From Myxococcaceae bacterium (GTDB taxonomy: Bacteria; Myxococcota; Myxococcia; Myxococcales; Myxococcaceae): a stretch of 43,053 nt of DNA. The DNA lies in contig JADGHL010000034.1 in the NCBI GenBank assembly GCA_019686135.1, forward strand, positions 1 to 43,053, given 5' to 3'. A program made the translations under genes and the position numbers. Positions 1 through 33,563 of the stretch are shown here, piece by piece. Within the stretch, counting starts at the first letter, position 1. Each line of letters starts with the position of its first letter. Below the pieces are notes generated by a model, which saw nothing but the letters and a program-made list of their open reading frames with translations, had not been told where the DNA came from and ran no database searches.

Positions 1-2091
<2,091 letters not shown>

Positions 2092-2238
2092 TCACAAGCG
2101 CGCACACGGCCGCACCGTGGTGGTGATGTGCGCTCCGGCGCTTTCCGGTGGCGGACGCCGGATGGACGCGGCGCGGGCAGGTTCGCGGAATGTCGCAGGA
2201 GGTCCTCCGTCGAAAGCACGTAGACTGCACCCGTCGAC

Positions 2239-3528
2239 ATGGGGATCCGCGGAAAGCTCGCGCTGTTGGTGCCGGGGCTGGTGGCGCTCACCGTGACCGG
2301 TGTGGCCCTCGGCGTCACCGAAGCGCAGCGCCGCGAACAGACCCGCGAGATGCGTCAGCGGCACGAGCAGCTGCTCGAGGCGGTGGGCGTGACCGCGGCG
2401 GCGTACGTCGCGCAGAACGACATGGCCGGGCTGGACGCGCTGGTGGCCAACGTCAGCCAGCAACGGCTCGATCCGGATCTGGTGGAGCTGGTGGTGGTGA
2501 ACCAGGACGGACGGATCATCGCCCACACCGATCCGACCCGGTTCAACGAACGCGTCGACGATGCCTTCACCCGCCGCGCGCTCACCTCCGTCGATCCGGT
2601 GTCGGAGCGGAGCGGGGATCAGCTCCGCATCGGCGTGCCCGCGAACGCCGGCGTGCGCTGGGCGACGGTCACCGCCACGTATTCGCTGCAGCGCCTCAAC
2701 GCGTCGATCGCCCGGAGCCGAGGGATCTGGCTCCTGGGCGCGGCGCTGTTGGGGCTGGTCATCTGCGCGCTCTTGTTCAGCGGGCTGTACCGGGTGGTGA
2801 TCCGCCCGGTGCGGACGCTGACCCGCGTGGCGCGGCGGATGGGCGAGGGCGTGCTCGACGAGCGCGTGCCGCCGCTCGGCGCCGGCGAGCTGGGAGAGCT
2901 GGGCGAGACCTTCAACAAGATGGCCGCGGCGCTGAAGGCGCAGCGCGAGAACCTCGAGCACGCCGTGGCCGAACGCACCCGCGAGCTGAGCGAGGCGAAC
3001 CAAAGGCTGGAGAAGCTGGCGGTCACCGACGGGCTGACCGGCGTGTTCAACCACCGGCGGTTCCAGGAGGCGCTGGCGCAGGAGGTGCTGCGCGCGTCGC
3101 GGACGCAGCGGCGCTTCAGCGTGATGATGGTGGATGTCGATCACTTCAAGCGCTTCAACGACACCTTCGGTCACCCTGCGGGCGACGAGCTGCTGCGCCG
3201 CCTGGCGCGGACGCTGGAGCAGGAGCTCCGGGCGACGGACCTCATCGCCCGTTACGGCGGCGAGGAGTTCGCGGTGGTGCTGCCGGACACCGACAAGGAC
3301 GTCGCGCTCGCGGCCGCCGAACGCCTGCGTGCCGCGGTGGAAGCCGACCTGAACGTGCCCGGCGCCGAGCATAAGGTGACGATCTCCGTGGGGCTGGCCA
3401 CGTACTCGGCGGACGGGGACACGCCGCAGGCGATCCTGATCGCCGCCGATCGCGCGCTCTACGCGGCGAAGCACTCCGGGCGGAATCGGGTGGTCACCGC
3501 CGCCTCGGCCCTGGAGCAGGTCGGATGA
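2239..3528 (+). CDS. Sensor diguanylate cyclase (periplasmic domain, HAMP, GGDEF)
   Basis: Second c-di-GMP synthase. It has a transmembrane segment at about residues 5-25, an extracytoplasmic sensor of about 130 residues (26-155), a second membrane helix (158-182), a HAMP linker with a coiled coil (183-255) and a GGDEF domain (260-425). GGEEF lies at 340-344, with the I-site RATD five residues before it, so catalysis and product feedback both look intact. The sensor has a CACHE-like length and feel, but I cannot assign a ligand. The last codons overlap the next gene by ATGA, which couples this cyclase tightly to a PhnD-type binding lipoprotein. No convincing Shine-Dalgarno precedes the ATG. 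A TAGACT hexamer at 2221-2226 could act as a -10 with a very short leader. Confidence 0.92.
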   Translation: MGIRGKLALLVPGLVALTVTGVALGVTEAQRREQTREMRQRHEQLLEAVGVTAAAYVAQNDMAGLDALVANVSQQRLDPDLVELVVVNQDGRIIAHTDPTRFNERVDDAFTRRALTSVDPVSERSGDQLRIGVPANAGVRWATVTATYSLQRLNASIARSRGIWLLGAALLGLVICALLFSGLYRVVIRPVRTLTRVARRMGEGVLDERVPPLGAGELGELGETFNKMAAALKAQRENLEHAVAERTRELSEANQRLEKLAVTDGLTGVFNHRRFQEALAQEVLRASRTQRRFSVMMVDVDHFKRFNDTFGHPAGDELLRRLARTLEQELRATDLIARYGGEEFAVVLPDTDKDVALAAAERLRAAVEADLNVPGAEHKVTISVGLATYSADGDTPQAILIAADRALYAAKHSGRNRVVTAASALEQVG

Positions 3529-5318: not shown

Positions 5319-8300
5319 TCACTGCGCCACGAAGCGGTAGGCGGAGTTCGGGTCGATGCCCGGGCTGGTCGAGCTGTTGACGTTGACCTTCCAGGCCACC
5401 GAGCCGGTGGGATCCTCGAGCCAGGTCGTGGCGTAGAGGCCGCGCTCGTACGCGGTGGACACGGAGTCGGTCATCGTCCCGAAGTGGAACTCGATGTCCC
5501 CGTTGTCGAAGAACTTCACCTGGAAGTTGTAGTCGAACGTGTAGGACGAGAGATCGTACTTCACGTGCTCCCAGCTCACGATGGTGTACCCATCGTTGGG
5601 GGTGATGCCGGGTTCCCTGCGCTCCCACCAGATGCCGCCGCCCGGTACTGCGGCGAGCGAGTCCCAGAAGGGCGCCACCAGGCCGCTGTCCGCGTCGGTC
5701 GGTTTGGGCGTGGTCTTGTTCGTAGGGTAGCAGCTCGTGGGCGACGTGCAGGACAACGGCTTGAACGAGATGAACCCGTTGGTGCCCACCCAGATCCGGT
5801 CGAAGAGGAACCCGCCGACCCGGATCGGGACCGCGAGCTGGACCTCATCGATCGACTCGTCCGAATCCCCGGAGGGAACGATCTGCGTTCCGGTGGCGGA
5901 GATGGACTCGAAGTTCCCGGGGATGCTCTGGCCCGCGTAGCTGTACGCCGCGCAGGCGGGGTTGGGCTGGCCCGGCGTGCCGAGCTGTCCATTCGGGGAT
6001 CCGTAGGTGGCCGTCGACGGCGCGACGCAGGCGATGCGGGTGATCCCCGAGGCCTTGATCAACGCCGGATCGTTGGGGGGTGCGCCGAGCTGGATCGTCC
6101 GGCCCGGCACGACCGTACCGGGGATCCGGAAGGTCGAGTACACGCCGCCATTGATGGTGAGGCTGAGGTCGAAGGCCTGGGTCGAGGGCAGCTGGTAGCC
6201 GCTGCCCCAGACGTAGTCCACCGGCACGTTGTCCCCCGCGTTCGCGGACTGCCCGAGCACGACGGCCGAGTTCGGCTGCATCACGAGCGACGAGGTGATG
6301 GTGAATCCGCCCCCGTTGCCATCGTCGATCGACCAGCCATTGAGGTCGATCGGATCCGACGTGTTGTTCGTGATCTCCAGCCACTGTCCGTCGGTGACGC
6401 CCGAGGCAGGGACGAGGTTCACTTCCGTGATCTCGAACTGGCCGGGCGGGATGATCTCCGGCGCACCCGTGATTTCGACGGCGCCGCCGTTCCCGACCTC
6501 CTGGACCACGGTGTAGGACCGGCCGGTGGCCGCGAGCACCGGAGTGGGCGTGGGCACGACGCCGAAGAAGCTGAAGCTGTCACCGGGGGAGGGGAAGATC
6601 CCGTTGGCGAACTGGTCCGGGTAGACCTGCACCGCGCCGGACTCGTCGAAGTTCTTGACGCCGATGAGGCCCTTGTCGGTGCTGTCGTAGCCGATCACGT
6701 CCTTGAACACGACGTTGATCTGCCCGTCCTCGTAGATCTGCACCTGGAAGGTGAGCTTCTTCGTGGGCGTCTGGGTGTACGGATACTCGTAGATGTTGTT
6801 CCACTGCACGATGAGCCGCCGCTGCGAGCCGGCGCCGTCGATCTGCCAGAGGATCTGCGTGTCGTTGCCGGTCTCGAGATCGTCCGCGAAGGCCAGGATC
6901 TGAAGCGGCTCGCCGGTCGTGGAGGGCAGCGTGGTCGGGTAGCTGGTGCTCACCAGCGCATCGGAGAGCAGCAAGAAGCCGTCCGCCGACACGGTCACGC
7001 CGTGCGCGGTGACCGGGGTTCCCATGATCACCGTTGAGAAGGATGTCCCGAACGAGGCGAACAGCTCATTGGTGTCGAGGTCCGGGACCACTCCGGGAAC
7101 CGGCGTCCCGGAGTTGGTGATGTCGATGAAGGAGACGGCGGGGTCGTTTTTCACCGCGAAGTTCACCGCCCGCATCGGACCGCCACCCTGCAGGGTCGAC
7201 CCGGTCAGCTGGATGACGGTCCCCTCCGGGACCGGCGACGGCGTGAAGACCAGCTTCGCCGGCGTGGTCACGTCCACCGTGACGGTGAGCGGCGGCGAGA
7301 GCGCATCGCCCACCAGGTTCTCGGCGAACAGCGCGTAGGTGGTCTGCGCGTTGGGGTAGACGGTGTGCGTGCCGGTCTCGGCCGCCTCCCCGTTCACTTC
7401 CTCCAGCACCTTGCCGGTGGCGAACTCGTACAGCTCGACGTGGCGCGCGTTCTCCACGTTCCAGGACAGCTGGGCCGGCGTGCCGCCATTCGCGAGGACC
7501 GGGATGTCGACGGTGAACGTCGGGTTGAGAAGATCGCCGACCACGGAGACGGCTCCGCTCCGCGACGCCGAACCGCCCCGCGCATTGCGGGCGACGATGG
7601 TCACGTCGCCATCGGTCACCGGGCTACTGACCTGGGCCGTGCCATTGGCGACTTTTCCGGGCTCCTGCGTCGTGTAGACCTCGGCGCCGTTGACCAGGAT
7701 CTGCACCGAGCTCGCCTCCGCGGTCTTCCAGGAGACGGAGAAGGTGCCGCCCAGCTTGGCGTAGGTCGGCGTGGTGAACTCCGTGATGATCGGATCCGCG
7801 CCCGCGTAGACGATCAGATCCTGCGACACCTCGTCCGCGCCGTTGCGCGCGACCAGGCGGTAGGGCACCAGCCCGTTGAGATCCGAGACCAGCTCGGGCA
7901 CCGGTTCGGAGAAGGTCCCGTCGGCGATCTCCTCGGGGGTGGAGGCGGTGTGGATCACCCCGCGGCCCTCGCCCTCCAGTGTGACCTCGGTGGCGCCGCC
8001 GACCTTCCAGTTGAGCGTGATCGTCCCGTCCGGGTCCACCGACGGCGCCGCCGACGCGAACGCCAGGATCGCCGGTCCGACCTCGACGGCGATCGACGAC
8101 TCGTGGTCCCCCGCGGTGAGCGTGTACGTGGTGGAGAAGTTGGGCCGGCGGACCAGAGAACCAGTGTGGTTCGCACCGTCGTACACCACCTCGCCGCCGG
8201 CATCCTCGATGTGGACCGACTCTGCCGCCGGGATGTTCCAGACGATCGATACCTCTTCGCCCGCGGTCACCTTCTGCGGAAAGACCGCGAAGAAGAACTC

Positions 8301-8660
8301 ATCGTTCGGCTGTTGCACCGCCACCGGCGCCGACGCCGTGTCCGAACCGCCCGGGCCAAAGGCGGTGAGGATGTAGAGCGTGTTCTCCTGCGGCTTCACC
8401 ACCAGCGATCCCTTCGCCGCGTCCGCGGCGGAGATGGTGAACGCCTTGCCGGACTGGGTGGTGAGGCTCACCGACTTCGCGTCGGTCGTCTCCCAGCTCA
8501 ACGTGACCTCGCCGCCCGGCGCCACGGAGGAGGCGGAGGCGGTGAACGACTTCACCTGCGCCGAAGGCGGCACCTCGGGAGTGGGCGCCTCGGGGGTGGG
8601 GCAACCGGCGAGCAGCGAGAGCGCGGCCAGCCCGAACAGTGGGGAAAGGCTTCTGAACAT
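5319..8660 (-). CDS. Giant Ig-like / lamin-tail lipoprotein, third of three paralogs
   Basis: Lipoprotein of 1,113 residues. The signal peptide ends in a canonical LLAGC lipobox at the start of a Pro/Glu/Thr linker. Residues about 28-500 are a string of beta-rich Ig-like repeats of roughly 85-95 residues, each opening with an S-F-T-A-type strand and a G-x-x-V-x-L-x-W core. About 510-700 is a NIDO-like jelly-roll-type module (I-x-W-x-N-G-F / APFWDD-type motifs). About 740-850 looks like a lamin-tail domain (GQWLEITN, then N-G-W-S-I-D-D). About 905-1113 is a second NIDO-like module ending YRFVAQ. The ATG at 8660 is preferred over longer frames because GGAG sits five bases upstream and the signal peptide starts there. 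It lies 44 bp after the stop of its paralog. Function unknown; a surface adhesive or structural role is inference from domain types. Confidence 0.85.
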   Translation of the reverse strand: MFRSLSPLFGLAALSLLAGCPTPEAPTPEVPPSAQVKSFTASASSVAPGGEVTLSWETTDAKSVSLTTQSGKAFTISAADAAKGSLVVKPQENTLYILTAFGPGGSDTASAPVAVQQPNDEFFFAVFPQKVTAGEEVSIVWNIPAAESVHIEDAGGEVVYDGANHTGSLVRRPNFSTTYTLTAGDHESSIAVEVGPAILAFASAAPSVDPDGTITLNWKVGGATEVTLEGEGRGVIHTASTPEEIADGTFSEPVPELVSDLNGLVPYRLVARNGADEVSQDLIVYAGADPIITEFTTPTYAKLGGTFSVSWKTAEASSVQILVNGAEVYTTQEPGKVANGTAQVSSPVTDGDVTIVARNARGGSASRSGAVSVVGDLLNPTFTVDIPVLANGGTPAQLSWNVENARHVELYEFATGKVLEEVNGEAAETGTHTVYPNAQTTYALFAENLVGDALSPPLTVTVDVTTPAKLVFTPSPVPEGTVIQLTGSTLQGGGPMRAVNFAVKNDPAVSFIDITNSGTPVPGVVPDLDTNELFASFGTSFSTVIMGTPVTAHGVTVSADGFLLLSDALVSTSYPTTLPSTTGEPLQILAFADDLETGNDTQILWQIDGAGSQRRLIVQWNNIYEYPYTQTPTKKLTFQVQIYEDGQINVVFKDVIGYDSTDKGLIGVKNFDESGAVQVYPDQFANGIFPSPGDSFSFFGVVPTPTPVLAATGRSYTVVQEVGNGGAVEITGAPEIIPPGQFEITEVNLVPASGVTDGQWLEITNNTSDPIDLNGWSIDDGNGGGFTITSSLVMQPNSAVVLGQSANAGDNVPVDYVWGSGYQLPSTQAFDLSLTINGGVYSTFRIPGTVVPGRTIQLGAPPNDPALIKASGITRIACVAPSTATYGSPNGQLGTPGQPNPACAAYSYAGQSIPGNFESISATGTQIVPSGDSDESIDEVQLAVPIRVGGFLFDRIWVGTNGFISFKPLSCTSPTSCYPTNKTTPKPTDADSGLVAPFWDSLAAVPGGGIWWERREPGITPNDGYTIVSWEHVKYDLSSYTFDYNFQVKFFDNGDIEFHFGTMTDSVSTAYERGLYATTWLEDPTGSVAWKVNVNSSTSPGIDPNSAYRFVAQ

Positions 8661-8665
8661 GCGGG

Positions 8666-8669
8666 CTCC
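8666..8669 (-). promoter_or_regulatory. Ribosome binding site fixing the start at 8660
   Basis: GGAG on the minus strand, five bases before the ATG at 8660. It supports the lipoprotein start and rejects the longer reading frame, which would add about 50 residues ahead of the signal peptide. Confidence 0.7.
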
Positions 8670-8704
8670 AGAAAAATCAGCGGCCATAAATGTCGAGCTC
8701 CTCG

Positions 8705-11700
8705 TCACTGCGCCGTGAGGCGGAAGGCCCGGTTGGAGGCGATCCCCGGTGTGTCGGCCGAGTCGATGTTGAAGATGAATGCCGCGTCGCCGCTGGCGTG
8801 TTCGACCCACGTCACGGACCGGGTGCCGTCCTCGCCGTTGAACGTCCCGAAGTGGAACTCGATGTTCCCGTTGTCGAAGAACTTCACCTGGAAGCTCAGG
8901 TCGTCGGTGGGTTCATCGAAGCGGTGGACGTTCTCCCAGCTGACGACGGTGTAGCCGTCGTTGGGCGTGACGCCCGGCACCTTGCGCTCCCAGTACACGC
9001 CGCCGTGCGCGGTGGTGTCGATGTCCGCCCAGAACGGAGCGATCAAGCCGACCGGCGCCTTCGTCGGATCGAGCGCCTTCTTGGGCGTGGAGAAGCAGTA
9101 CTGGTCGCTGCAGGTGAAGGTCGGATCGAGCGAGATGTACCCGTTGGTGGAGACCACCAGCTGGTTGAACGCCACCCCGTCCAGGATCACCGGGGACGGC
9201 AGCGTGATGGTGGCGATGTCGTCGTCCGTGTTGTCGAACATGACTTTCGTGCCGGTCGCGGCGATCGACTCGAAGTTGGGGGCGATCGACCCGGTCATCG
9301 CGTAGCCCGGGCACTCCGGGTTCGCCGCGCCGGGTGTGCCGTGCTGGTTGTGCGTGCCGTAGGCGTTGGCTGCGCGGGCCGTGCAGCCCAGCTGGTCGAC
9401 GCCGGCCGACGTGGCCAGGTAGGGCAGATCACCCATCTGCCAGCTCGTGCCCTGCGGCAGCGAGACCTGCGGAAGGGTGATGCTGGTCACGGTGGTGGTG
9501 CCATTGCGCAGCGTCACCGTGCCGCCGGGCGGAATGGTGAAGGTGTTGCCGTAGACATAGTCCACCGCCACGCCGTCGCCCGCGGTGCTGGACTGCCCGA
9601 GGACGAACCACGCCTGCGGCGGGACGATGGTGCCCGTGGCGATGGTGTGGGTGTTGCCGTTGCCGAAGTCCAGCGTCATCCCGGACAAATCGAGCGGCTG
9701 GAGGCTGCGATTCTCGAGCTCGATCCACTGTCCGTCGGTTACGCCCGCGGGCGGGTTGGCGTTGACCTCCGAGAACTGCACGCGCTCGTACGGATACGGC
9801 TGCTGGATGTCGATCGTCTCCCCGTTGGCGAGGTGGACCTTGCCGTGGATCCCGGCTTTGGACGCGTAGACGGTGGCCGGCAGCTGCGCGGGGCCTGCGA
9901 ACAGGCTCACCGAGCTGTGCGGCTGCGGAATGCCGGGCACGACTTCGGCCACGGTCTCATCGCCATTGATCACGCCGCGCACGGGCGCCGTGCCGGTGTA
10001 GCCGGAGAAATTGTCGTAGGCGAAGACGACCTTCCCGTTCGAGAAGACCTGGGCCTCGAAGCTCAGCGACGAGCCGGACACCGGGTAGTACTGCACGTTC
10101 TTCCACTGGACGATCAGGCGCTGATCCGGGCCCAGCTGGTCCAGCTGGTAATAAATCTTGCCCGCCGAGGCCGAGTAGAAGTCGTCATAGAACGGGACGA
10201 TCGAGAACGGCTCGAGCTTGTCGGTGGGCAGCGTGAGCGGCGAGTCCCAGGTGACGCTCGAGGTCCCGAAGGTGAACCACCCGTTGATCGAGATGGCGAT
10301 CTTGTTGTTGCTGACCGTCTGACCGAAAAGGGTGGTGGTGAACGTCTGCGGCATGGTGACCACCTTGGTGGTCAGGGTGCACGACGAGCAGTAGGCGATG
10401 TCGGTCCCGGTGGAGCTGATGTCGATGAACTCGTCGAACCCGCTCACCCCGACCGCGGTGACCACGTTGTGGCCGGTCACCGTCACCGGGCTGCCGAGCG
10501 GCGCGATGGGCGGCGTCACGGTGAACGCGGCGGGGTTGGCCACGGTGATGTCCACGAAGGCGAGGTCGCTCGCGCCGATGCCGTTGTCGACGATCAGGCG
10601 GTACTGCGTGTCCCGCCCCGGGTAGACGACCACCATTCCCGTCTCGCTGGCCACGCCGGTGCCCTCGTAGACCGCCGAGGTGCTCCCCAGAGGCACGATG
10701 CGGACGCCGCGCGCGTTGGGCGCGGTCCAGGCCAGAGTGACCGGCTGCCCCGCGTACGTGATGGTGGAGGGCGTGGCGGTGAAGGTCGTGACGGTGGGCG
10801 CGCCGATCGGCTCCACCGTGACCGGGTCGCTCGCCGCCATCGTCTGGCGAGCGTCATAGGCGCGCAGAATGTACTCGGTCGTCTGGGGCGGCGAGGGGAG
10901 GACGGCGGTGCCGCTGGCGGCGGTGGCCGGAGACGGGTTCGAGTACACGCGCGTCGTGCCCGCGTAGATCTCCACCCGGTCCGCGCCGGAGGTGGTCCAC
11001 GAGACCTGGAAGGAGCCCCCCGCGGTCACGAGCGGCGGGGCGGTGAAGGACGTCACGCCCACCGTTCCGCCCACGTAGATCTGCAGCGGCTGAGACGAGG
11101 TGGAACCGTCCGCGCCGGTGGCGACCAGCTCGTAGGCGAGCACTGCACCCCGGTCGATCGACGCGGGGACCTCGATGTCGAAGCTGCCGTCCGCCGCCTT
11201 TGCGGGATCGGTCTCTTCATGCAGCGTGCCCTCCACCGCAGCGGTGAGGGTGACCGAGGCGGCGCCGGTGGTCTTCCAGCTCACGGTGAGGGTGTCACCG
11301 GGCTGCACCGGGTTGGGTGTGCCGACGAGCACGTCGATCGACGGCGCCACCGTCACCTGGGACGTGTAGACCGTCCCGTCCACCGTGAGCACGTACTCCG
11401 TGGTGGTGACCGGGGTCACCTGCACGGTGCCCGAGGTCAGCTGCCCTTTGAGGTCGATCGCCTCGCCCTCCGCGGTGGCGAGCGTGACCTCTTTCGCGCG
11501 CGGCGCGGACCACGCGAGGACAGCGCTCTCGCCCGCGCGGAGCTGCTTTGGCGAGGCGACGAAGAGGACCTTCCCCGCGCCGGTGTTCGCGGTGATCACG
11601 ACCGCCGCAGTGGCGCGCACCCCGCGCTCGTTCTTCGCGGTCAGCACGAAGAGCTGGTCGCCGTTGAGGGTAACCTCGAGCTCGCCGCTCGTCGCCGAAG

Positions 11701-11929
11701 GGTCGACGCCGGAGACCACGCCCTTCACCGAGTCACGCAGCTCGACGGTGGTGGCGTTCCGCGTCTCCCAGCTCAGGGTCACCTTCTCGCCGGGCAGCAC
11801 CGAAGCGGCGCTGGCCGTGAACGACACGATCTCCGGCGCCGGCGGCGGTGGCGGCGGGGGCTTCACCTTCGCGGGGCAGCCCGCGAGGAGGATCAGCGCT
11901 GGAACAAGCGTGAGGAGGGGGGTGCGCAT
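8705..11929 (-). CDS. Giant Ig-like / lamin-tail lipoprotein, second of three paralogs
   Basis: Lipoprotein of 1,074 residues with the same plan as its neighbours. It has a short signal peptide ending LLAGC, then a run of prolines, then Ig-like repeats to about residue 495, a first NIDO-like module (about 500-690), a lamin-tail-like domain (about 715-830, with GQWIELEN) and a second NIDO-like module (about 877-1074) ending FRLTAQ. The middle and C-terminal modules share phrases with the 5319-8660 protein, such as TPNDGYT followed by V-S-W-E and then VKFFDNG, so the two are clearly paralogs. GAGG seven bases upstream supports the ATG. The gap to the preceding gene is 43 bp, nearly the same as the next gap, which suggests tandem duplication of a gene plus its leader. 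Probably exported to the outer membrane surface; function unknown. Confidence 0.85.
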   Translation of the reverse strand: MRTPLLTLVPALILLAGCPAKVKPPPPPPPAPEIVSFTASAASVLPGEKVTLSWETRNATTVELRDSVKGVVSGVDPSATSGELEVTLNGDQLFVLTAKNERGVRATAAVVITANTGAGKVLFVASPKQLRAGESAVLAWSAPRAKEVTLATAEGEAIDLKGQLTSGTVQVTPVTTTEYVLTVDGTVYTSQVTVAPSIDVLVGTPNPVQPGDTLTVSWKTTGAASVTLTAAVEGTLHEETDPAKAADGSFDIEVPASIDRGAVLAYELVATGADGSTSSQPLQIYVGGTVGVTSFTAPPLVTAGGSFQVSWTTSGADRVEIYAGTTRVYSNPSPATAASGTAVLPSPPQTTEYILRAYDARQTMAASDPVTVEPIGAPTVTTFTATPSTITYAGQPVTLAWTAPNARGVRIVPLGSTSAVYEGTGVASETGMVVVYPGRDTQYRLIVDNGIGASDLAFVDITVANPAAFTVTPPIAPLGSPVTVTGHNVVTAVGVSGFDEFIDISSTGTDIAYCSSCTLTTKVVTMPQTFTTTLFGQTVSNNKIAISINGWFTFGTSSVTWDSPLTLPTDKLEPFSIVPFYDDFYSASAGKIYYQLDQLGPDQRLIVQWKNVQYYPVSGSSLSFEAQVFSNGKVVFAYDNFSGYTGTAPVRGVINGDETVAEVVPGIPQPHSSVSLFAGPAQLPATVYASKAGIHGKVHLANGETIDIQQPYPYERVQFSEVNANPPAGVTDGQWIELENRSLQPLDLSGMTLDFGNGNTHTIATGTIVPPQAWFVLGQSSTAGDGVAVDYVYGNTFTIPPGGTVTLRNGTTTVTSITLPQVSLPQGTSWQMGDLPYLATSAGVDQLGCTARAANAYGTHNQHGTPGAANPECPGYAMTGSIAPNFESIAATGTKVMFDNTDDDIATITLPSPVILDGVAFNQLVVSTNGYISLDPTFTCSDQYCFSTPKKALDPTKAPVGLIAPFWADIDTTAHGGVYWERKVPGVTPNDGYTVVSWENVHRFDEPTDDLSFQVKFFDNGNIEFHFGTFNGEDGTRSVTWVEHASGDAAFIFNIDSADTPGIASNRAFRLTAQ

Positions 11930-11972
11930 GGTGGAACCTCGAAGCTGGAACGGGGTGGACGGCGGGAGCCGC

Positions 11973-14900
11973 TCATGGAGTCATCGCATTCGGGTTCGGC
12001 GTGAAGCGGTACGCCGTATCCGGCTGGATGACGGGCTGATTGATGCCGATGGGGATCGCCAGATCGCCGGCCAGGTTTTCGATCCAGGCCGTGGCGGAGT
12101 TGCCGGTGGCATAGTTGCTCGAGGTCCCGCTGGTCATCGTCGCGTAGTGGAACTCGATGGCGCCGTCGTCGAAGAGCTTGATCTCGAAGTTCAGATCATC
12201 GCCGGCGAGGTAGTGCGTGAAGTGGTGCCACTGGATGATCCACCGCCCGGCGAGTCCGCCCGACGACCCGCGGTACTGGTAGTAGACGCCCGAGTCCGTC
12301 GAGTTCCCCTCTTCGAGGTCATCCCAGAAGGGCGCGACCGAGCCGCGTGGGTTCGAGGTGGACGGCTTGGTCTTGTTGGTGGTGTACGAGCTGGTGGCGG
12401 TGCCGAAGGCGATCAACCCGTTCGAGTCCACTTCGATCTTCGAAGGGGTCTGGCCGAAGTAGGTGAAGGGATGGGCGCTGAGATCCACCGACGCATGGAC
12501 GGTGTCCTGGTTCGATCCCGGCGTGAACACCGGCGTGCCGCTGCCCGAGATGTCCTCGAACGCCACGGTGATCGGCGTGAGCGCGTACGGGAAGCAATTC
12601 TCGTTGCGCGCGCCCGGCGTGCCGATGGCCCCGTTCATGCCGAAGGTGACCGTGCGCTGGCAGGTGAGCGAAGCGCCCGCGCTGTTGATGGCCTTGTCCG
12701 GCGGTTGGACCGACTCGCCCGCCGTCGCGTTCGTCCACGAGAGCGAAGCCAGCGTCGTGCCGGAGAGCTGGATGGACGCGGAGTCGCTGGCGCCGAGAGA
12801 CAGATCGCTCCACAGCTCGTTGACCGGTGCCCCTCCGTTCTCGTCGGGCACCAGGCTCTGGCCGTAGACGTAGTAGCCGTTGGCCGGGAGCATCGTCGGC
12901 GGCAGGACGTGCGGCTGCGTCGCGCCGGCGCTCGTGAGCTCCAGCCCGCCGATGTTCACCGGCATGGGCAGCGCGTTGTGGATCTCCACCCACTGCCCGG
13001 CGATCGCGCCCGTTGCCGGCAGCGGCATGGCCTCGGTGACCTCCAGCGAGCCGGGCCCGAAAACCCAGACCTGCCCGCCGTGGAACTGGTAGATGCCTCC
13101 CTGCTGTCGGGTGAAGAACCCGATGAAGGCCGGCCGGCTCAGCGCGTAGGTCACCTCTCCGGACACCGAGCCACTCCCGAACCAGGTGATCTGGCTGTTC
13201 TCCGCGACCAGCGCGCCGCCGAGATTGAAGCCGATCTGCGCGTTGAACAGGTCGTCGTGGGCGCTCAGGCCGATGGTGGCGTTCTCACCACCGGAGTCGG
13301 TCCCCGTAAGCTGCGAGTAGAGGAAGCGGAAGCGGCCGGTCTCTTCGAGCTGAACCTGGAAGGTGAGGGCGCCCATCGAATCCGACTTGGGATGGACGTT
13401 GAGCCACTCGATCACCAGCCGGCGGGGCGTGGTGGAGTCATCCACCACGTAGAGGACCTTGCCGGAGCCGAGCTCGAGATCGTCCCAGAAGGGGGCGATC
13501 ACCTCGGGCGCGCCAGCCTGCGTCAGGTCCTGGTTGTCCGGGAGCGCGCCGACGTTGCCGAAGGAGACGAACCCGTTCGTCGAGACCCAGAAGTGGTCAC
13601 GCACGCCGTCGACGTAGGGGAAATAGAACGGGTGGCTGAGCGGCAGCTCGGCGATGTCGTCGTCCTGCGACGAGAAGACGACCTCCCGGGCTTCCACGTG
13701 GCCGTCGAGCTCGAGCCATTCGGTGGCGCTGAAGTCCTGGATCGGAGTGGTGCTGGGGATGCCGATCACCTCCGCGGTGCTGTTCGGATCCACGGCCCAC
13801 GACAGGGTGATGGGCGAGCCGGCCACCGCAGGCGTCGGACTGACGGTCACCTGCGACGGCGTGAACACATGCACTTCCTGTTCCGCGGTGACCTTGTCGC
13901 CGGCGGCGTTGAACGCCTCGAGCACGAACGTGTTGTCGGCGGCCACCGGGTAGAGGTCCCGGGTACCGGCACCGACGTCGTCAACATCGGAGGTGTAGAA
14001 CAGCGCCGGCCCATCCTTCAGGCGGATGACGATCTCGGACGCATCCTGCGTCGACCAGTTGGTCTGCGCCGGATCGCCCGCGTTCGCGATGCTGGCCGGC
14101 ATCTCGAAGGTGAGGATCTTCGGCGCCTTCACCAGCGCCACCGTGTGGGCCTGTTCCGCGCGTCCGCCGGCCGCGTTCGTCGCCACCAGCTTCAGATCCA
14201 GATCCCGGCCGATCGGCGGCAGGTCGTAGCTGCCGGAGGTGACCCGGCCGGGATTGCTGGGAAGGGTCTCGAAGATCAGCTGCCCGTTCGAGAAGAGCTG
14301 CACCTTGCTGGCGTTGGCCGTTTTCCAGGTGACGGGGACCGGCTTGCCTTCGGTCACCGCATCCGGCGCGACGAACGCCTCGACCACCGGGTTGAGGCCC
14401 ACGTACGCCACGAGCGCGCGGGTGATCGTCCGCTCCGGCGTGTTCTGCTTCACGGTGAGCGTGAAGTGCAGCGGCAAGCCCTCGGTGACCGCCGCGCCGG
14501 ACGGAAGGGTCCCGGGGACCACGAAGTCGAAGCTGCCCTCGTCCACCTCGGCCAGCTCGGTGGGGGCGGTGACGCGCTTCTGCTCGCCGAAGAGAGCCTC
14601 ACTGAGGATCACCTCGTCCGCGCCGTGGGTCGTCCAGTGCAGGGTGATGGTCTCGCCGATCTGGGCGCCCAGCGGCGCGGCGGTGAAGTCGTCCACGGTG
14701 GCCTGCACCACCACGGCAGCGTCGGCGGTCAGCGACATCGTCGCATCGGCGCCGGTGGCGGTGAGCGTGAAGGTCTGCGACCGATCGGGCAGCACGGTGA
14801 CCACGCCGCTGCCCTCGCCGGGATCGATCGCGGGGACGGTGGCTCCGCCGGAGCTGGTGATCGCCGCGGTCCGGGCGTTCTGCGCCGACCACAGCAGATC

Positions 14901-15305
14901 CACCGGCCGGCCGGCCTTCACCTCCGCGGGCACCGCGGTGAGGAAGACCTCCTTGAGATCCTCACCGACCGCCACGCGGGTGAAGTCGGTGTCACGGCCG
15001 CCTTCGCCGGTGACCTTGAGCACGTAGACGTCCGTCTTCGTCGGCGTCACCGTCGCGGTGCCGCCGTTGGCATCGCCCTCGTAGGGGATCTCGGTGCCGG
15101 ACCCGTCGAGGATCACCGCCTCGGTGGCGTGCTCCGCCTGGAAGCTCAGCCTCACCGACTCGCCCAGCTCCACCCGTTCGCGGTCGGCGGTGAAGCTCTT
15201 GATGGAGGGTGGTGGCGGCAGCTGCTTCGGTTCAGGAGCCTTGGGGCAGCCCGCGAAAACCAGTGCTGTCAGGGCCAAAAGGCCCCCGGAAGAGAGACGC
15301 TTCAC
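11973..15305 (-). CDS. Giant Ig-like / lamin-tail lipoprotein, first gene of the operon
   Basis: Lipoprotein of 1,110 residues, promoter-proximal member of the three-gene array. The start is taken as GTG at 15305: GGAG stands six bases upstream and the product opens with a signal peptide ending VFAGC. The longer ATG frame from 15446 runs through the candidate promoter and is rejected. After a Pro-rich linker come about six Ig-like repeats (about 30-520), a NIDO-like module (about 529-735) with APFWDDLE, a lamin-tail-like domain (about 756-905) and a second NIDO-like module (about 911-1110), again with APFWDDLE. It is more diverged from the other two than they are from each other, judged by shared phrases. 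Ligands, partners and role unknown. Confidence 0.85.
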   Translation of the reverse strand: MKRLSSGGLLALTALVFAGCPKAPEPKQLPPPPSIKSFTADRERVELGESVRLSFQAEHATEAVILDGSGTEIPYEGDANGGTATVTPTKTDVYVLKVTGEGGRDTDFTRVAVGEDLKEVFLTAVPAEVKAGRPVDLLWSAQNARTAAITSSGGATVPAIDPGEGSGVVTVLPDRSQTFTLTATGADATMSLTADAAVVVQATVDDFTAAPLGAQIGETITLHWTTHGADEVILSEALFGEQKRVTAPTELAEVDEGSFDFVVPGTLPSGAAVTEGLPLHFTLTVKQNTPERTITRALVAYVGLNPVVEAFVAPDAVTEGKPVPVTWKTANASKVQLFSNGQLIFETLPSNPGRVTSGSYDLPPIGRDLDLKLVATNAAGGRAEQAHTVALVKAPKILTFEMPASIANAGDPAQTNWSTQDASEIVIRLKDGPALFYTSDVDDVGAGTRDLYPVAADNTFVLEAFNAAGDKVTAEQEVHVFTPSQVTVSPTPAVAGSPITLSWAVDPNSTAEVIGIPSTTPIQDFSATEWLELDGHVEAREVVFSSQDDDIAELPLSHPFYFPYVDGVRDHFWVSTNGFVSFGNVGALPDNQDLTQAGAPEVIAPFWDDLELGSGKVLYVVDDSTTPRRLVIEWLNVHPKSDSMGALTFQVQLEETGRFRFLYSQLTGTDSGGENATIGLSAHDDLFNAQIGFNLGGALVAENSQITWFGSGSVSGEVTYALSRPAFIGFFTRQQGGIYQFHGGQVWVFGPGSLEVTEAMPLPATGAIAGQWVEIHNALPMPVNIGGLELTSAGATQPHVLPPTMLPANGYYVYGQSLVPDENGGAPVNELWSDLSLGASDSASIQLSGTTLASLSWTNATAGESVQPPDKAINSAGASLTCQRTVTFGMNGAIGTPGARNENCFPYALTPITVAFEDISGSGTPVFTPGSNQDTVHASVDLSAHPFTYFGQTPSKIEVDSNGLIAFGTATSSYTTNKTKPSTSNPRGSVAPFWDDLEEGNSTDSGVYYQYRGSSGGLAGRWIIQWHHFTHYLAGDDLNFEIKLFDDGAIEFHYATMTSGTSSNYATGNSATAWIENLAGDLAIPIGINQPVIQPDTAYRFTPNPNAMTP

Positions 15306-15368: not shown

Positions 15369-15387
15369 ATTCTCGTCAGGTGAGAAT
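15369..15387. promoter_or_regulatory. Inverted repeat overlapping the -10 element, possible operator
   Basis: ATTCTC at 15369-15374 and GAGAAT at 15382-15387 form a perfect 6 bp inverted repeat with a seven-base centre. One arm is the candidate -10 box and the other lies in the promoter spacer, where a bound dimeric repressor would block RNA polymerase. No regulator gene lies next to it. Six-base arms can occur by chance, so this is tentative. Confidence 0.4.
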
Positions 15388-15398
15388 TGAGCTGTCAA
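15369..15398 (-). promoter_or_regulatory. Sigma70-type promoter of the giant lipoprotein operon
   Basis: On the minus strand a perfect TTGACA (15398-15393) is followed after 18 bases by GAGAAT (15374-15369), which matches the -10 consensus at four of six positions. The start of transcription would lie near 15362, leaving a leader of roughly 57 bases to the GTG at 15305. The surrounding 15306-15531 gap is visibly more AT-rich than the coding DNA. Confidence 0.6.
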
Positions 15399-29937: not shown

Positions 29938-30170
29938 GCGCCCGTTGCGTGAGAGGGGGCGCCCGTTGCGTGAGAGGGGGCGCCCGTTGCGTGAGAGGGG
30001 GCGCCCGTTGCGTGAGAGGCCCGCGGTCGTGCGTGAGATGCGGCGCCCGTGCGTGAGATGCGGCGCCCGTGCGTGAGAGGCCCGCGGTCGTGCGCGAGAG
30101 GCCCGCGGTCGTGCGCGAGAGGCGGCGGTGCTGCGCGAGAGGCCTGCGGTCGTGCGCGGAGGCATGCCGC
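29938..30170. repeat. Tandem 20-21 bp GTGAG-type repeat in a 521 bp gene-free gap
   Basis: Starting at 29938 a 21 bp unit (GCGCCCGTTGCGTGAGAGGG plus G) is repeated three times exactly, with a fourth copy of 18 bases. About seven diverged 20-21 bp units follow, reading GCGTGAGATGCGGCGCCCGT and GCGCGAGAGGCCCGCGGTCG plus T, up to about 30170. More diverged copies may precede it from about 29898. The unit length lets long frames stay open on both strands, but these have no gene-like composition. The remainder of the 29828-30348 gap (29828-29897 and 30171-30310) shows nothing I can name. Confidence 0.85.
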
Positions 30171-30310
30171 CGTGAGTAACGGCCCGCAGTGTGGGGCGGT
30201 GGCGTCGTGGCTCGTAAGGGCAGCCGCGCGCCTCCTCCGTCAGCGCCCGTCGCCGTCTCGTGGACGAGCACCTTCAGCCCCGGCCCGGGTGTGCGGAAGG
30301 GAATGCAGCC

Positions 30311-30338
30311 GTGACATGGGCCCGCCACGGTCTAGAGT
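30311..30338 (+). promoter_or_regulatory. Candidate promoter of the mla operon
   Basis: GTGACA at 30311-30316 (five of six to the -35 consensus), a 16-base spacer, then TAGAGT at 30333-30338 (four of six to the -10). Initiation would fall near 30345, only a few bases before the mlaE ATG at 30349, so the transcript would be almost leaderless. Confidence 0.45.
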
Positions 30339-30348
30339 ACGGCCGCGG

Positions 30349-31173
30349 ATGGCGACCGACGCGGAGAAGTCACCAGAAGCTGCGCCCGACGAGCCGAACA
30401 CCTTCGTGGAAGGCGTGGAGAACGTCGGGCGCGGGGTGATCAACAGCATCTCGAGCTTCGGCGGGATGGCGACGCTGGCGTGGGAGATCCTCCGCTGGTC
30501 GGTGCGTCCGCCGTACCGGCTGCAGAACCTCTTCGCTCAGCTGGACTTCGTCGGCGTCGGGTCGATCTTCATCGTGTGCCTGACCGGCACGTTCACCGGG
30601 ATGGTGTTCGCGCAGCAGTCCTCGCGCGCCTTCGAGCTGTTCGGTGCAGAGTCGCTGGTCGGCCCCACTGTCGCGCTCACCATCACGCGGGAGCTGGCGC
30701 CGGTGTTCACCGCGCTGATGGTGACGATGCGCGCCGGTTCGGCGATGTGCACCGAGCTGGGAACGATGCGGGTCACCGAACAGGTGGACGCGCTGGAGAC
30801 GATGGCGGTGAGCCCGGTGCAGTACCTGCTGGTTCCGCGCGTGCTGGCCGGGCTGATCATGGTGCCCATGCTCACCATGCTGTTCGACACCTCGGGCATG
30901 GTGGGCGGGTTCTTTGTGTCCGTGACCCTGAAGGGGATGAGCGCCGGAACCTGGCTTGCCCGGACACAGACCTGGCTGGATCCGGAGGACATCTTCGAGG
31001 GGTTGATCAAGGCGGCGGTGTTCGGGTTCGCGGTCTCGCTGATCTCTTGCTACCGGGGGTTCAACGCCTCGGGCGGTGCCAAGGGCGTCGGCAAGGCGAC
31101 CACGGAGGCGATGGTGGGCAGCGCGCTGGCGATCTTCATCCTCGACTACTTCGTAGGCGTAATCCTCCACTGA
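30349..31173 (+). CDS. mlaE: MlaE-type lipid-transport ABC permease
   Basis: 274 residues. After a polar N-terminus of about 55 residues come an amphipathic interface helix and about five membrane helices. The family signature is clear: T-F-T-G-M-V-F-A-Q-Q, then TRELAPV, E-L-G-T-M-R-V-T-E-Q-V-D-A-L. It forms the inner-membrane core of an MCE/Mla phospholipid transporter together with MlaF and MlaD downstream. ATG 30349 is chosen because the frame upstream runs into the repeat array. The MlaF gene follows after 28 bp. Confidence 0.95.
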   Translation: MATDAEKSPEAAPDEPNTFVEGVENVGRGVINSISSFGGMATLAWEILRWSVRPPYRLQNLFAQLDFVGVGSIFIVCLTGTFTGMVFAQQSSRAFELFGAESLVGPTVALTITRELAPVFTALMVTMRAGSAMCTELGTMRVTEQVDALETMAVSPVQYLLVPRVLAGLIMVPMLTMLFDTSGMVGGFFVSVTLKGMSAGTWLARTQTWLDPEDIFEGLIKAAVFGFAVSLISCYRGFNASGGAKGVGKATTEAMVGSALAIFILDYFVGVILH

Positions 31174-31201
31174 GCACTGAGCCTTCGCCGGACCTACTCC
31201 G

Positions 31202-31945
31202 ATGCCGCCGATCATCCAGATCCAGGACCTGCACAAGTCGTTCGGCGACAACGCGGTGCTCAAGGGCATCAACCTCGACATCGAGGAGGGCACCACGTTG
31301 GTGGTGCTGGGCGGATCGGGCTCCGGCAAGACGGTGCTGATGAAGCACATGATCGGCCTGCTCAAGCCGGACCGCGGGCGGGTGCTGGTGGAGGGGCAGG
31401 ACATCGTGCCTCTGGACGGCGAGGAGCTGGCGCGGGTCCGCAAGAAGTTCGGGATGGTGTTCCAGGCCGCGGCGCTCTTCGACTCGATGACCGTCTACGA
31501 GAACGTGGCGTTCCCGCTGCGCGAGCACGCGAAGCTCAAGGAGTCCGAGATCCGGGAGAAGGTGAAGGAGAAGCTGGCGATCGTCGGACTTCGGAATGTG
31601 GAGTCGAAGTACCCGGCGGATCTCTCCGGCGGCATGCGCAAGCGGGTCGGCCTGGCGCGGGCGATCATCCTCGACCCGAAGATCGTGCTCTACGACGAGC
31701 CCACCACCGGGCTGGATCCCATCACGACCGACTACGTGGACGAGATGATCCTCGACGCCAAGCGCGAGCTGGGGGTCACCTCGGTGGTGATCAGCCACGA
31801 CATCGCGTCGGCGTTCAAGGTGGCGGACCGGATTGCGTTTTTGTCGCAGGGACACATCGTCGAACAGGGGCCGCCGGAGCAGCTGCGCCGAAGCGAGGAG
31901 CCCGCGGTGAAGGCGTTTCTGTCCACGTGGTTCGGGAAGCAATGA
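31202..31945 (+). CDS. mlaF: MlaF-type ABC transporter ATPase
   Basis: 247 residues of a complete ABC ATPase: Walker A GGSGSGKT, Q-loop V-F-Q, signature LSGGMRKRV and Walker B I-V-L-Y-D-E-P, with the switch His in V-I-S-H-D. The L-S-G-G-M-R-K-R form is typical of the Mla/Ttg2A group. It should energise lipid movement through MlaE and MlaD. No STAS-domain MlaB gene is present in the window. Confidence 0.96.
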   Translation: MPPIIQIQDLHKSFGDNAVLKGINLDIEEGTTLVVLGGSGSGKTVLMKHMIGLLKPDRGRVLVEGQDIVPLDGEELARVRKKFGMVFQAAALFDSMTVYENVAFPLREHAKLKESEIREKVKEKLAIVGLRNVESKYPADLSGGMRKRVGLARAIILDPKIVLYDEPTTGLDPITTDYVDEMILDAKRELGVTSVVISHDIASAFKVADRIAFLSQGHIVEQGPPEQLRRSEEPAVKAFLSTWFGKQ

Positions 31946-32019
31946 TTGTGGCGCGCGGTGATGGGGCCGGTAGAGTCACCCTTGCGCACGGGGACGATGG
32001 GCCGGTGACGGACCGTAAC

Positions 32020-32025
32020 GGGGAG
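32020..32025 (+). promoter_or_regulatory. Ribosome binding site for the TTG start of mlaD
   Basis: GGGGAG, five bases before TTG 32031. There is no suitable ATG or GTG before the membrane helix in this frame, so the Shine-Dalgarno decides for the rare TTG start. Confidence 0.7.
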
Positions 32026-32030
32026 AACGC

Positions 32031-33563
32031 TTGAAGACGCTCTTGACGCCCTTCCGCGTGGGCTTACTGGTCCTCACCGCGGTGGCGTTCTTGTTCGTCT
32101 TTCTAACCTTCGTGAAGAAGGGCGGGATGGACGAGGACGAGTCGGTCGACGTCTACGCGTACTTCAACGACGCGTCCGGCCTGGGGCGCCGCAGCCGCGT
32201 GCAGATCGCCGGCATCGGGGTGGGGGAGATCCGGGAGATCATCCTCGAGGGGAACAAGGCCAAGGTCTGGCTTCGGATCCGCAGCGACGTGCAGGTGCGC
32301 GAGGACGCCGCGCTGACCAAACGCTCGGAGTCGATCGCCCTGGGCGACTACATGCTGGACCTGTTCCCCGGCACGCAGGGCGCGCGGCTGCTCAAGGACG
32401 GAGACCAGATCACCCGCGTCTACGATGCCCCCGGCATGCAGCAGGTCTTCGACTCGCTGCAGAAGATCACCGGGGACATCCAGGAGGTGACCGCGTCATT
32501 GCGGCGCGTGCTCGGCGGGGACAAGGGGACCGAGTCGCTGCAGTCGATCGTCGCGAACCTGCAGAACCTGTCCACCTCGGTGGACAAGACGGTGCGCGAG
32601 TCCGGTGACAAGCTGAACGCGATCCTGGGGAACTTCCAGGAGTTCTCCGAGCAGGTGCGCGGGATCTCCCGGGGGCAGGAGGAGCAGATCCGGGCGATCA
32701 TCTCGAACATCAACAAGATCACCGTGCAGGTGCAGGAGACGCTGACGTCGGTGCAGAAGATCCTCGGTTCGGGCGAAGGGGATCTCCGGGAGTCGGTGGC
32801 CAGCATCAAGGAGAACCTGAACAGCCTGCAGCAGTCGCTCCACAACATCGAGGAGCTGACCGAACAGGTGAAGAACGGCGAGGGGATCGCCGGCAAGCTT
32901 CTGGCTGACGAGCGCCTGGGCCAGAAGGTCTCCGAGTCGGTGGAGGAGCTCTCGAGCTTCTCCGACCGGCTGACGCGGCTGCAGACCGAGGTGGGGATCA
33001 AGAGCGAGTACCTGGTCGAGCAGGGGACGGCGAAGAACACGCTCTCGCTGCGGCTGATCCCGCGGCCAGACAAGTACTACCTGATCGAGGTGGTGGACGA
33101 TCCGCGGGGCAGCGTGTCCGAGGAAATCGTCGTCACCAACCCGCCGGGCGTAGGCGATCCCGCGACGCAGCGGCGGCAGATCCGGACGGAGGCGCTCAAG
33201 TTCTCGGCACAGTTCGCCAAGCGCTACTACTGGCTGACGCTGCGCTTCGGGATCATCGAATCCACCGGCGGCGTCGGCATGGACGCGTCGTTCTTCGACG
33301 ACCTGCTGACGCTGAAGCTGGACGCCTTCAACTTCTCGGTGAAGGAGCTCACCTATCCGAGGCTGCGCACGAGCCTGAGGCTGCAAGCCTTCGGCCACCT
33401 CTTCGCCACGGCCGGCGTGGACGACGTGCTCAACCCGCAGACGCGCGACCTGACCACCAACCGTCTGATCGCGGGACGCGACTACTTCGTCGGCGGCGGC
33501 ATCTACTTCACCGACGACGATCTGAAGGCGATCATCACGACGACGGGAGTGCCAACTCCCTAG
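32031..33563 (+). CDS. mlaD: Long MlaD-type MCE protein with coiled coil and probable C-terminal barrel
   Basis: 510 residues, against about 180 for E. coli MlaD. One membrane anchor at about 8-28 is followed by a single MCE domain (about 35-115: D-A-S-G-L-G-R-R-S-R-V-Q-I-A-G-I-G-V-G). A long helical, coiled-coil stretch runs from about 125 to 320. The C-terminal part (about 325-510) consists of short amphipathic strands (YYWLTLRFGIIES, then F-V-G-G-G-I-Y-F) resembling an outer-membrane beta-barrel. TTG start with GGGGAG five bases before it. Genes for MlaA, MlaB and MlaC are not nearby. MlaD proteins of this long form are known to bridge the envelope in the diderm Firmicute Veillonella; that this one does so is inference. 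Confidence 0.88.
   Translation: MKTLLTPFRVGLLVLTAVAFLFVFLTFVKKGGMDEDESVDVYAYFNDASGLGRRSRVQIAGIGVGEIREIILEGNKAKVWLRIRSDVQVREDAALTKRSESIALGDYMLDLFPGTQGARLLKDGDQITRVYDAPGMQQVFDSLQKITGDIQEVTASLRRVLGGDKGTESLQSIVANLQNLSTSVDKTVRESGDKLNAILGNFQEFSEQVRGISRGQEEQIRAIISNINKITVQVQETLTSVQKILGSGEGDLRESVASIKENLNSLQQSLHNIEELTEQVKNGEGIAGKLLADERLGQKVSESVEELSSFSDRLTRLQTEVGIKSEYLVEQGTAKNTLSLRLIPRPDKYYLIEVVDDPRGSVSEEIVVTNPPGVGDPATQRRQIRTEALKFSAQFAKRYYWLTLRFGIIESTGGVGMDASFFDDLLTLKLDAFNFSVKELTYPRLRTSLRLQAFGHLFATAGVDDVLNPQTRDLTTNRLIAGRDYFVGGGIYFTDDDLKAIITTTGVPTP

Follow-up and report, generated by a model that had tools for sequence, protein, structure and literature searches.

A conserved trio of large Ig-repeat lipoproteins with NIDO and lamin-tail modules in the Myxococcaceae

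Described relatives of the component domains

Lamin tail domains (LTD, PF00932) occur in bacterial and archaeal proteins, including extracellular nucleases and surface proteins, and most of those described in the papers we found are joined to a nuclease or hydrolase (PMC6085458, PMC4486849, PMC5118699). Three tandem lipoprotein genes in the 43,053-nucleotide stretch of myxobacterial DNA analysed here (the window) encode the same domain by sequence and predicted fold, but differ from described LTD proteins in lacking an enzyme domain and in carrying, on an Ig stalk, an LTD flanked by a NIDO module on either side. To our knowledge, bacterial lamin tail domains have no clear role outside nucleases, and the trio offers a conserved non-enzymatic setting for one, within a co-inherited set of giant lipoproteins from social, often predatory bacteria.

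Fibrillar adhesins (PMC8286594) resemble the trio in their tandem Ig-like stalk, distal head and membrane anchor. The trio departs from them in having no known adhesive Pfam domain, a predicted N-terminal lipid anchor, and three different subunits encoded together; neither NIDO nor LTD is mentioned in the main text of that study, and no other adhesive domain had a Pfam match in the three genes. The best Foldseek match (E 2.6e-15) was GhpA, the grappling hook protein of Aureispira (PDB 9flw, 9flp, 9flv), which likewise has long chains of Ig-like domains. However, the TM-score was 0.1–0.2 at 16% identity, the likeness was limited to the Ig repeats, the organism belongs to another phylum, and GhpA was absent from profile matches to PDB sequences; the modelled resemblance would thus reflect a shared domain type rather than a demonstrated family. 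For the LTD region, the closest solved match was the DUF4876 protein BT_1938 of Bacteroides (PDB 4q1z; Z 10.9, 2.4 Å over 140 residues), although identity was 10% and the Ig stalk and NIDO modules were left unmatched. While the parts are therefore known (Ig stalks, LTD, NIDO and lipoproteins), we found no description of the conserved trio, and no well-characterised protein of this exact layout, in Pfam, NCBIfam, PDB sequences or the open-access papers searched.

Gene set and domain architecture

The window corresponds to contig C120 in a draft genome of 5.5 Mb from the family Myxococcaceae. The three genes lie on the reverse strand, as do all features given below: gene 1 (array position 1; 11973..15305) encodes 1,110 residues, gene 2 (position 2; 8705..11929) 1,074 and gene 3 (position 3; 5319..8660) 1,113, with intergenic gaps of 43 bp (gene 1/gene 2) and 44 bp (gene 2/gene 3). 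The coordinates of the set, the lengths and the gaps given by an earlier sequence-only reading proved exact. Gene 1 starts with GTG at 15305, with GGAG upstream, while genes 2 and 3 start with ATG at 11929 and 8660, and a Shine-Dalgarno-like GAGG/GGAG precedes each gene separately. Upstream of gene 1, at a distance of 64 bp, is a sigma-70-like site (TTGACA-N18-GAGAAT, 15369..15398; a consensus match only); it is the single match in 10.6 kb, where 0.5 would be expected, and is suggestive of a promoter. The window copy is flanked by a 5'-nucleotidase gene and a methyltransferase gene.

All three products have a hydrophobic N-terminal leader and an AGCP lipobox followed by a Pro-rich linker, as had been proposed from the letters. 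The lipobox cysteines are Cys20 of gene 1 (FAGCP, 15246..15248), Cys18 of gene 2 (LAGCP, 11876..11878; Cys in 43 of 44 aligned relatives) and Cys20 of gene 3 (LAGCP, 8601..8603), and all relatives whose N-terminus is intact have a lipobox (59/59). Predicted masses are 112–117 kDa, with pI values of 4.2–4.5. Alignments of the proteins run from one end to the other (BLASTP E values from 1e-65 down to 0), with full-length pairwise identities of 26% (1 vs 2), 30% (1 vs 3) and 35% (2 vs 3), implying that their shared plan reflects common descent and not chance.

That plan consists of a GCP lipobox, the Pro-rich linker, five Ig-like domains, NIDO, LTD and a second NIDO. The order of Ig stack, NIDO, LTD and NIDO claimed at first sight was borne out by the end-to-end paralogy, Pfam, hhalign, and AlphaFold2 with PDB comparison (for the Ig and lamin-tail folds). 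The five Ig-like domains occupy 10532..11839 in gene 2 (aa 31–466, from AlphaFold2 strands, hhalign and PDB matches) and, by homology, approximately 13860..15209 in gene 1 (from gene 2) and 7263..8564 in gene 3; the five units are mutually homologous (hhalign P 96.6–99.3). The first NIDO module (NIDO1) was placed at 9926..10444 in gene 2 (aa 496–668; AlphaFold2, hhalign), at approximately 13170..13736 in gene 1 by paralogue alignment, and at approximately 6570..7124 in gene 3 by hhalign and a sub-threshold Pfam NIDO match (aa 613–647). NIDO2 lies at 8708..9304 in gene 2 (aa 876–1074; Pfam 39.6 bits, AlphaFold2), approximately 11994..12587 in gene 1 (Pfam 43.2 bits, aa 956–1013) and, by homology, approximately 5322..5942 in gene 3. 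The two modules are homologous to each other (hhalign P 99.9, E 9e-33).

Between them, the LTD spans 12732..13055 in gene 1, 9479..9796 in gene 2 (aa 712–817, or about 712–835 in the model) and 6201..6443 in gene 3. Against Pfam gathering cut-offs of 34.3 bits for LTD and 25 bits for NIDO (PF06119), the LTD exceeded its threshold in genes 2 and 3 (53.9 and 47.2 bits) and fell below it in gene 1 (27.4 bits, E 4.6e-6), while NIDO exceeded its threshold in genes 1 and 2 and fell below it in gene 3 (20.6 bits). When relatives were scanned at E ≤ 1e-3, LTD was detected in 44/44 and NIDO in 22/44. No enzymatic domain was found in any of the three genes by Pfam or NCBIfam. Apart from the lipobox Cys, the only conserved cysteines of gene 2 are C849 and C873 (9311..9385; Cys in 41/44 and 43/44 relatives, respectively), which lie between LTD and NIDO2 and probably form a disulfide there, as would fit an extracytoplasmic protein.

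A structure was modelled with AlphaFold2 for gene 2 alone, from a 44-sequence alignment (mean pLDDT 84.2, pTM 0.50). The model contains Ig-like domains at residues of about 33–114, 122–195, 197–286, 291–375 and 382–465, and this stack matches many Ig proteins among solved structures. A separate model of the LTD with NIDO2 (pLDDT 84.1, pTM 0.76) was used for the distal region. The best Foldseek matches of its LTD were lamin A/C, B1 and B2 (E ~1e-3), and superposition on the globular domains of these lamins gave Z scores of 8.6–9.3 over about 100 residues (2.6–4.2 Å), including Z 9.2 at 2.6 Å over 99 residues for the human lamin Ig domain 1ifr. As modelled, the LTD of gene 2 is thus confirmed as a true lamin-tail fold. 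Structure prediction for this protein therefore returned the expected Ig and lamin-tail folds, while NIDO2 matched only weak beta-sandwich chains in the PDB (Z ~5), with no strong match.

Conservation, phylogeny and origin of the window copy

A search of Myxococcota genomes for the same array found full-length homologues in about eight genera of the Myxococcaceae. Outside the family, no full-length homologue was detected in 195 genomes of the phylum at E ≤ 1e-30, where only partial or larger multi-domain relatives were found. Flanking sequence was available on either side of 15 arrays, of which 13 comprised exactly three genes, one six and one two. The six-gene array (genome G018) consists of two triplets separated by 252 bp, compared with spacers of 32–45 bp inside each triplet, a pattern that would suit transcription of each triplet as a single unit. 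The two-gene array (G001, L070) has kept positions 1 and 2, without position 3.

A tree built from 60 full-length proteins placed position 1 in one clade with full support (100; SH-aLRT for the clade that includes gene 1), represented in every array and in 16 genomes, and position labels required 9 changes on the tree versus 31 in shuffles. In a 30-row subset, position 1 once more came out as a strict clade, but a strict clade was rejected both for position 2 and for position 3 (AU p 0.003 and 0.0007, respectively), ruling out strict orthology for these two positions. Moreover, a tree of the NIDO/LTD region only paired gene 2 of the window with gene 3, and likewise the second and third genes of a further array (L058), at odds with the tree of full-length proteins. 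Read plainly, position 1 would have split early from the lineage of positions 2 and 3, between which sequence appears to have been exchanged later, or whose origin appears tangled. Paralogues were scarcely more alike within arrays than between them (28 vs 28%, 28 vs 28% and 34 vs 32% identity), indicating that no homogenisation of position 1 is under way. The three positions gave correlated distance matrices (r 0.97, 0.95 and 0.94), which is expected for any co-inherited genes and so supports a co-maintained set without being evidence of contact. By these comparisons, the trio is both old and conserved.

A second triplet is carried by the same genome on contig C200 (the L058 array), where it is 38–44% identical to that of the window. 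The two triplets were sisters at each position in the full-length tree (support 98, 97 and 98), implying that triplets duplicate as blocks. Gene 2 of the C200 triplet is without NIDO1. The C200 triplet and the group-I arrays occupy a site bounded by aspS and recJ (C200 stops short of recJ), and the window copy lies away from it; together with the sister relationship, this is most simply read as the window triplet being a block-duplicated copy that moved.

Larger relatives occur elsewhere in the phylum. A member of the same order (G161, one contig of 4,350,553 bp) has three tandem frames of 2,739, 2,732 and 2,697 residues with lipoboxes and a layout of about Ig10-NIDO-(Ig-NIDO)n-LTD-NIDO, and a member of the same class (G163) has three of 1,905, 1,941 and 2,024 residues, laid out as about Ig10-NIDO-Ig4-NIDO-Ig-LTD with an extra C-terminal NIDO in at least the third. 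Each set was monophyletic within its own genome (support 82 for G161 and 98 for G163), implying that these trios either arose separately or were homogenised. Single-gene relatives were also found, in G161 (at 1.9 Mb), G163 (contig C1) and G193. The trio is thus common but not universal, and not always needed.

Proposed function, alternatives and neighbouring genes

Conserved order and number, block duplication and the recurrence of trios argue that the three genes act as one unit. Because no enzyme domain was found, adhesion or structure is the likeliest role. We put at about even the chance that the three products are distinct, non-interchangeable subunits that work jointly, a heteromeric adhesin or fibre being the likeliest form. 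In the proposed mechanism, the genes would form an operon for an outer-membrane surface complex, with each protein exported, lipidated at its conserved Cys and then sorted to the outer membrane. The Pro-rich linker and five Ig-like domains would serve as a stalk holding the NIDO-LTD-NIDO head away from the membrane, and the complex may mediate contact with other cells, prey or matrix. For the heteromeric adhesin or fibre suggested in the sequence-only reading, conserved order, co-inheritance, block duplication and recurrence elsewhere favour the heteromeric part, while surface location, physical assembly, adhesion, a fibre and any ligand are what we infer.

Under Lol-type sorting, a lipoprotein reaches the outer membrane by default and is kept from it only by an avoidance signal. 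In Myxococcus xanthus, Lys at +2 marks inner-membrane lipoproteins and Ala at +7 those of the matrix (PMC3222651). The window proteins have Pro at +2 and at +7, so that, by this rule from a relative, the outer membrane is the default guess; they lack the +2 Lys inner-membrane signal, and Pro+7 in all three rules out the Ala+7 matrix-export signal for them. Ala+7 was found in 11 of 19 position-3 proteins.

Against the heteromeric reading stand the tangled history of positions 2 and 3, the array without position 3, the missing NIDO1 in gene 2 of the C200 triplet, and the single-gene relatives. Several of these would suit three surface adhesins that are co-regulated but act independently on different ligands, the operon serving joint expression and not assembly: the positions have diverged widely (26–35% identity), other Myxococcota have single-gene relatives whose domains are similar, and one array retains positions 1 and 2 only. 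We nevertheless consider independent adhesins rather unlikely, since a gene number and order that hold in nearly every array, together with duplication in blocks and correlated evolution, exceed what they would need, and recombining positions 2 and 3 would scramble their specificities.

Gram-negative lipoproteins face the periplasm by default, and the proteins could instead be periplasmic or envelope-spanning structural lipoproteins that tether envelope layers and are not surface exposed. The neighbours of the syntenic copies could be read the same way, as general envelope proteins: the C200 triplet and group-I arrays lie behind a zincin-motif lipoprotein (HExxH...DEGxADFHG; reading frames of 423–464 aa), which had no match in Pfam or NCBIfam, and a beta-barrel-like protein that is small (about 240 aa) and has a weak OMP_b-brl match. 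However, a five-Ig stalk with linker and NIDO/LTD head is typical of extracellular proteins, and some position-3 relatives, though not the window proteins, carry the Ala+7 matrix-export signal (PMC3222651), making a periplasmic tether improbable. Least credible of all, and very improbable, is a recent gene-plus-leader duplication that means little for function. The near-equal gaps of the window had been taken as a sign of duplication of gene and leader, but the spacers are unrelated (1969 of 2000 shuffles reach their alignment score), gaps within arrays of relatives range from 5 to 90 bp, the paralogues are far diverged, and the ancient position-1 clade common to 16 genomes places the duplications deep in the tree, which contradicts a recent event.

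Returning to three subunits acting together, a bolder form of this reading, which we hold only tentatively, is that they may represent a new surface organelle of the Myxococcota: a fibre with three obligate subunits, all of them Ig-stalk lipoproteins bearing NIDO-LTD-NIDO heads. Such a fibre would have been duplicated within genomes as one unit and reached more than once as a tandem trio (of about 1,100 aa in Myxococcaceae and of 1,900–2,740 aa in a further two lineages), and would serve to contact kin, prey or matrix. The conserved trio offers a way into how contact structures are built in myxobacteria and would extend the known range of multi-subunit lipoprotein assemblies.

The zincin lipoprotein and beta-barrel, which precede the syntenic triplets, were also considered as essential operon partners and rejected. 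The zincin lipoprotein is near-universal in the family (51/58 genomes), the pair occurs without a triplet at the aspS–recJ site of about ten further family genomes, and neither lies beside the window copy or the second array group. In that second group (G016, G039, G047 and G054), the next frame is 1,361–1,455 aa long with eight TIG domains, and in the one array from which it was taken in full (L066) it ends in what we take to be a MYXO-CTERM-like tail.

Gene neighbours of the group-I and group-II arrays

The group-I arrays are preceded by a conserved zincin lipoprotein with the motif HExxH...DEGxADFHG (alignment A2), located at L058:10759-12027 beside the second triplet of the window's own genome (G000:C200), and had no match in Pfam or NCBIfam. 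The zincin was present in 51 of the 58 family genomes and is adjoined by a small beta-barrel-like protein; most members of the family have the two flanked by aspS and recJ. A second, divergent zincin lipoprotein is encoded in the window's genome (G000:C84:5114-6316, locus L112) and gave a weak match to M36 fungalysin (E 0.04). In G023, where the triplet is missing, a gene judged by eye to be transposase-like (L105:11357-12733) fills the interval from the barrel gene to recJ.

Directly downstream of the group-II triplets, and on the same strand, is a TIG-repeat protein (L066:14784-18866, with relatives in G039, G047 and G054), which has eight TIG domains, the NCBIfam choice-of-anchor Z repeat and, at L066, a MYXO-CTERM-like tail. 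This protein is possibly a fourth component of the group-II sets.

Variation among triplet relatives and trios in other lineages

The position-2 protein of the C200 triplet (L058:3671-6445) lacks NIDO1, a module of about 200 residues. Ala+7 of the mature lipoprotein, a matrix-export signal in Myxococcus (PMC3222651), was found in 11/19 position-3 relatives (e.g., L065_3, L071_3 and L075_3) and in none of the window's three proteins. Tandem trios of Ig/NIDO/LTD lipoproteins also occur in two other Myxococcota lineages (G161:C1:1012134-1037169 and G163:C13:160848-178689; loci L131, L132, L126 and L127), encoding proteins of 1,905–2,739 aa.

Other genes of the window and its genome

Further LTD- or NIDO-like proteins in the window's genome include an 878-aa frame with four LTD matches (G000:C245:24705-26690) and a 2,107-aa frame, two stretches of which resemble the C-terminal part of the triplet proteins (G000:C40:46587-50342). 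Within the window, two GGDEF diguanylate cyclase genes (7-3528) lie close to the array on the opposite strand, and consecutive lipid-transport genes encode MlaE, an ABC ATPase and MlaD (30049-33563).
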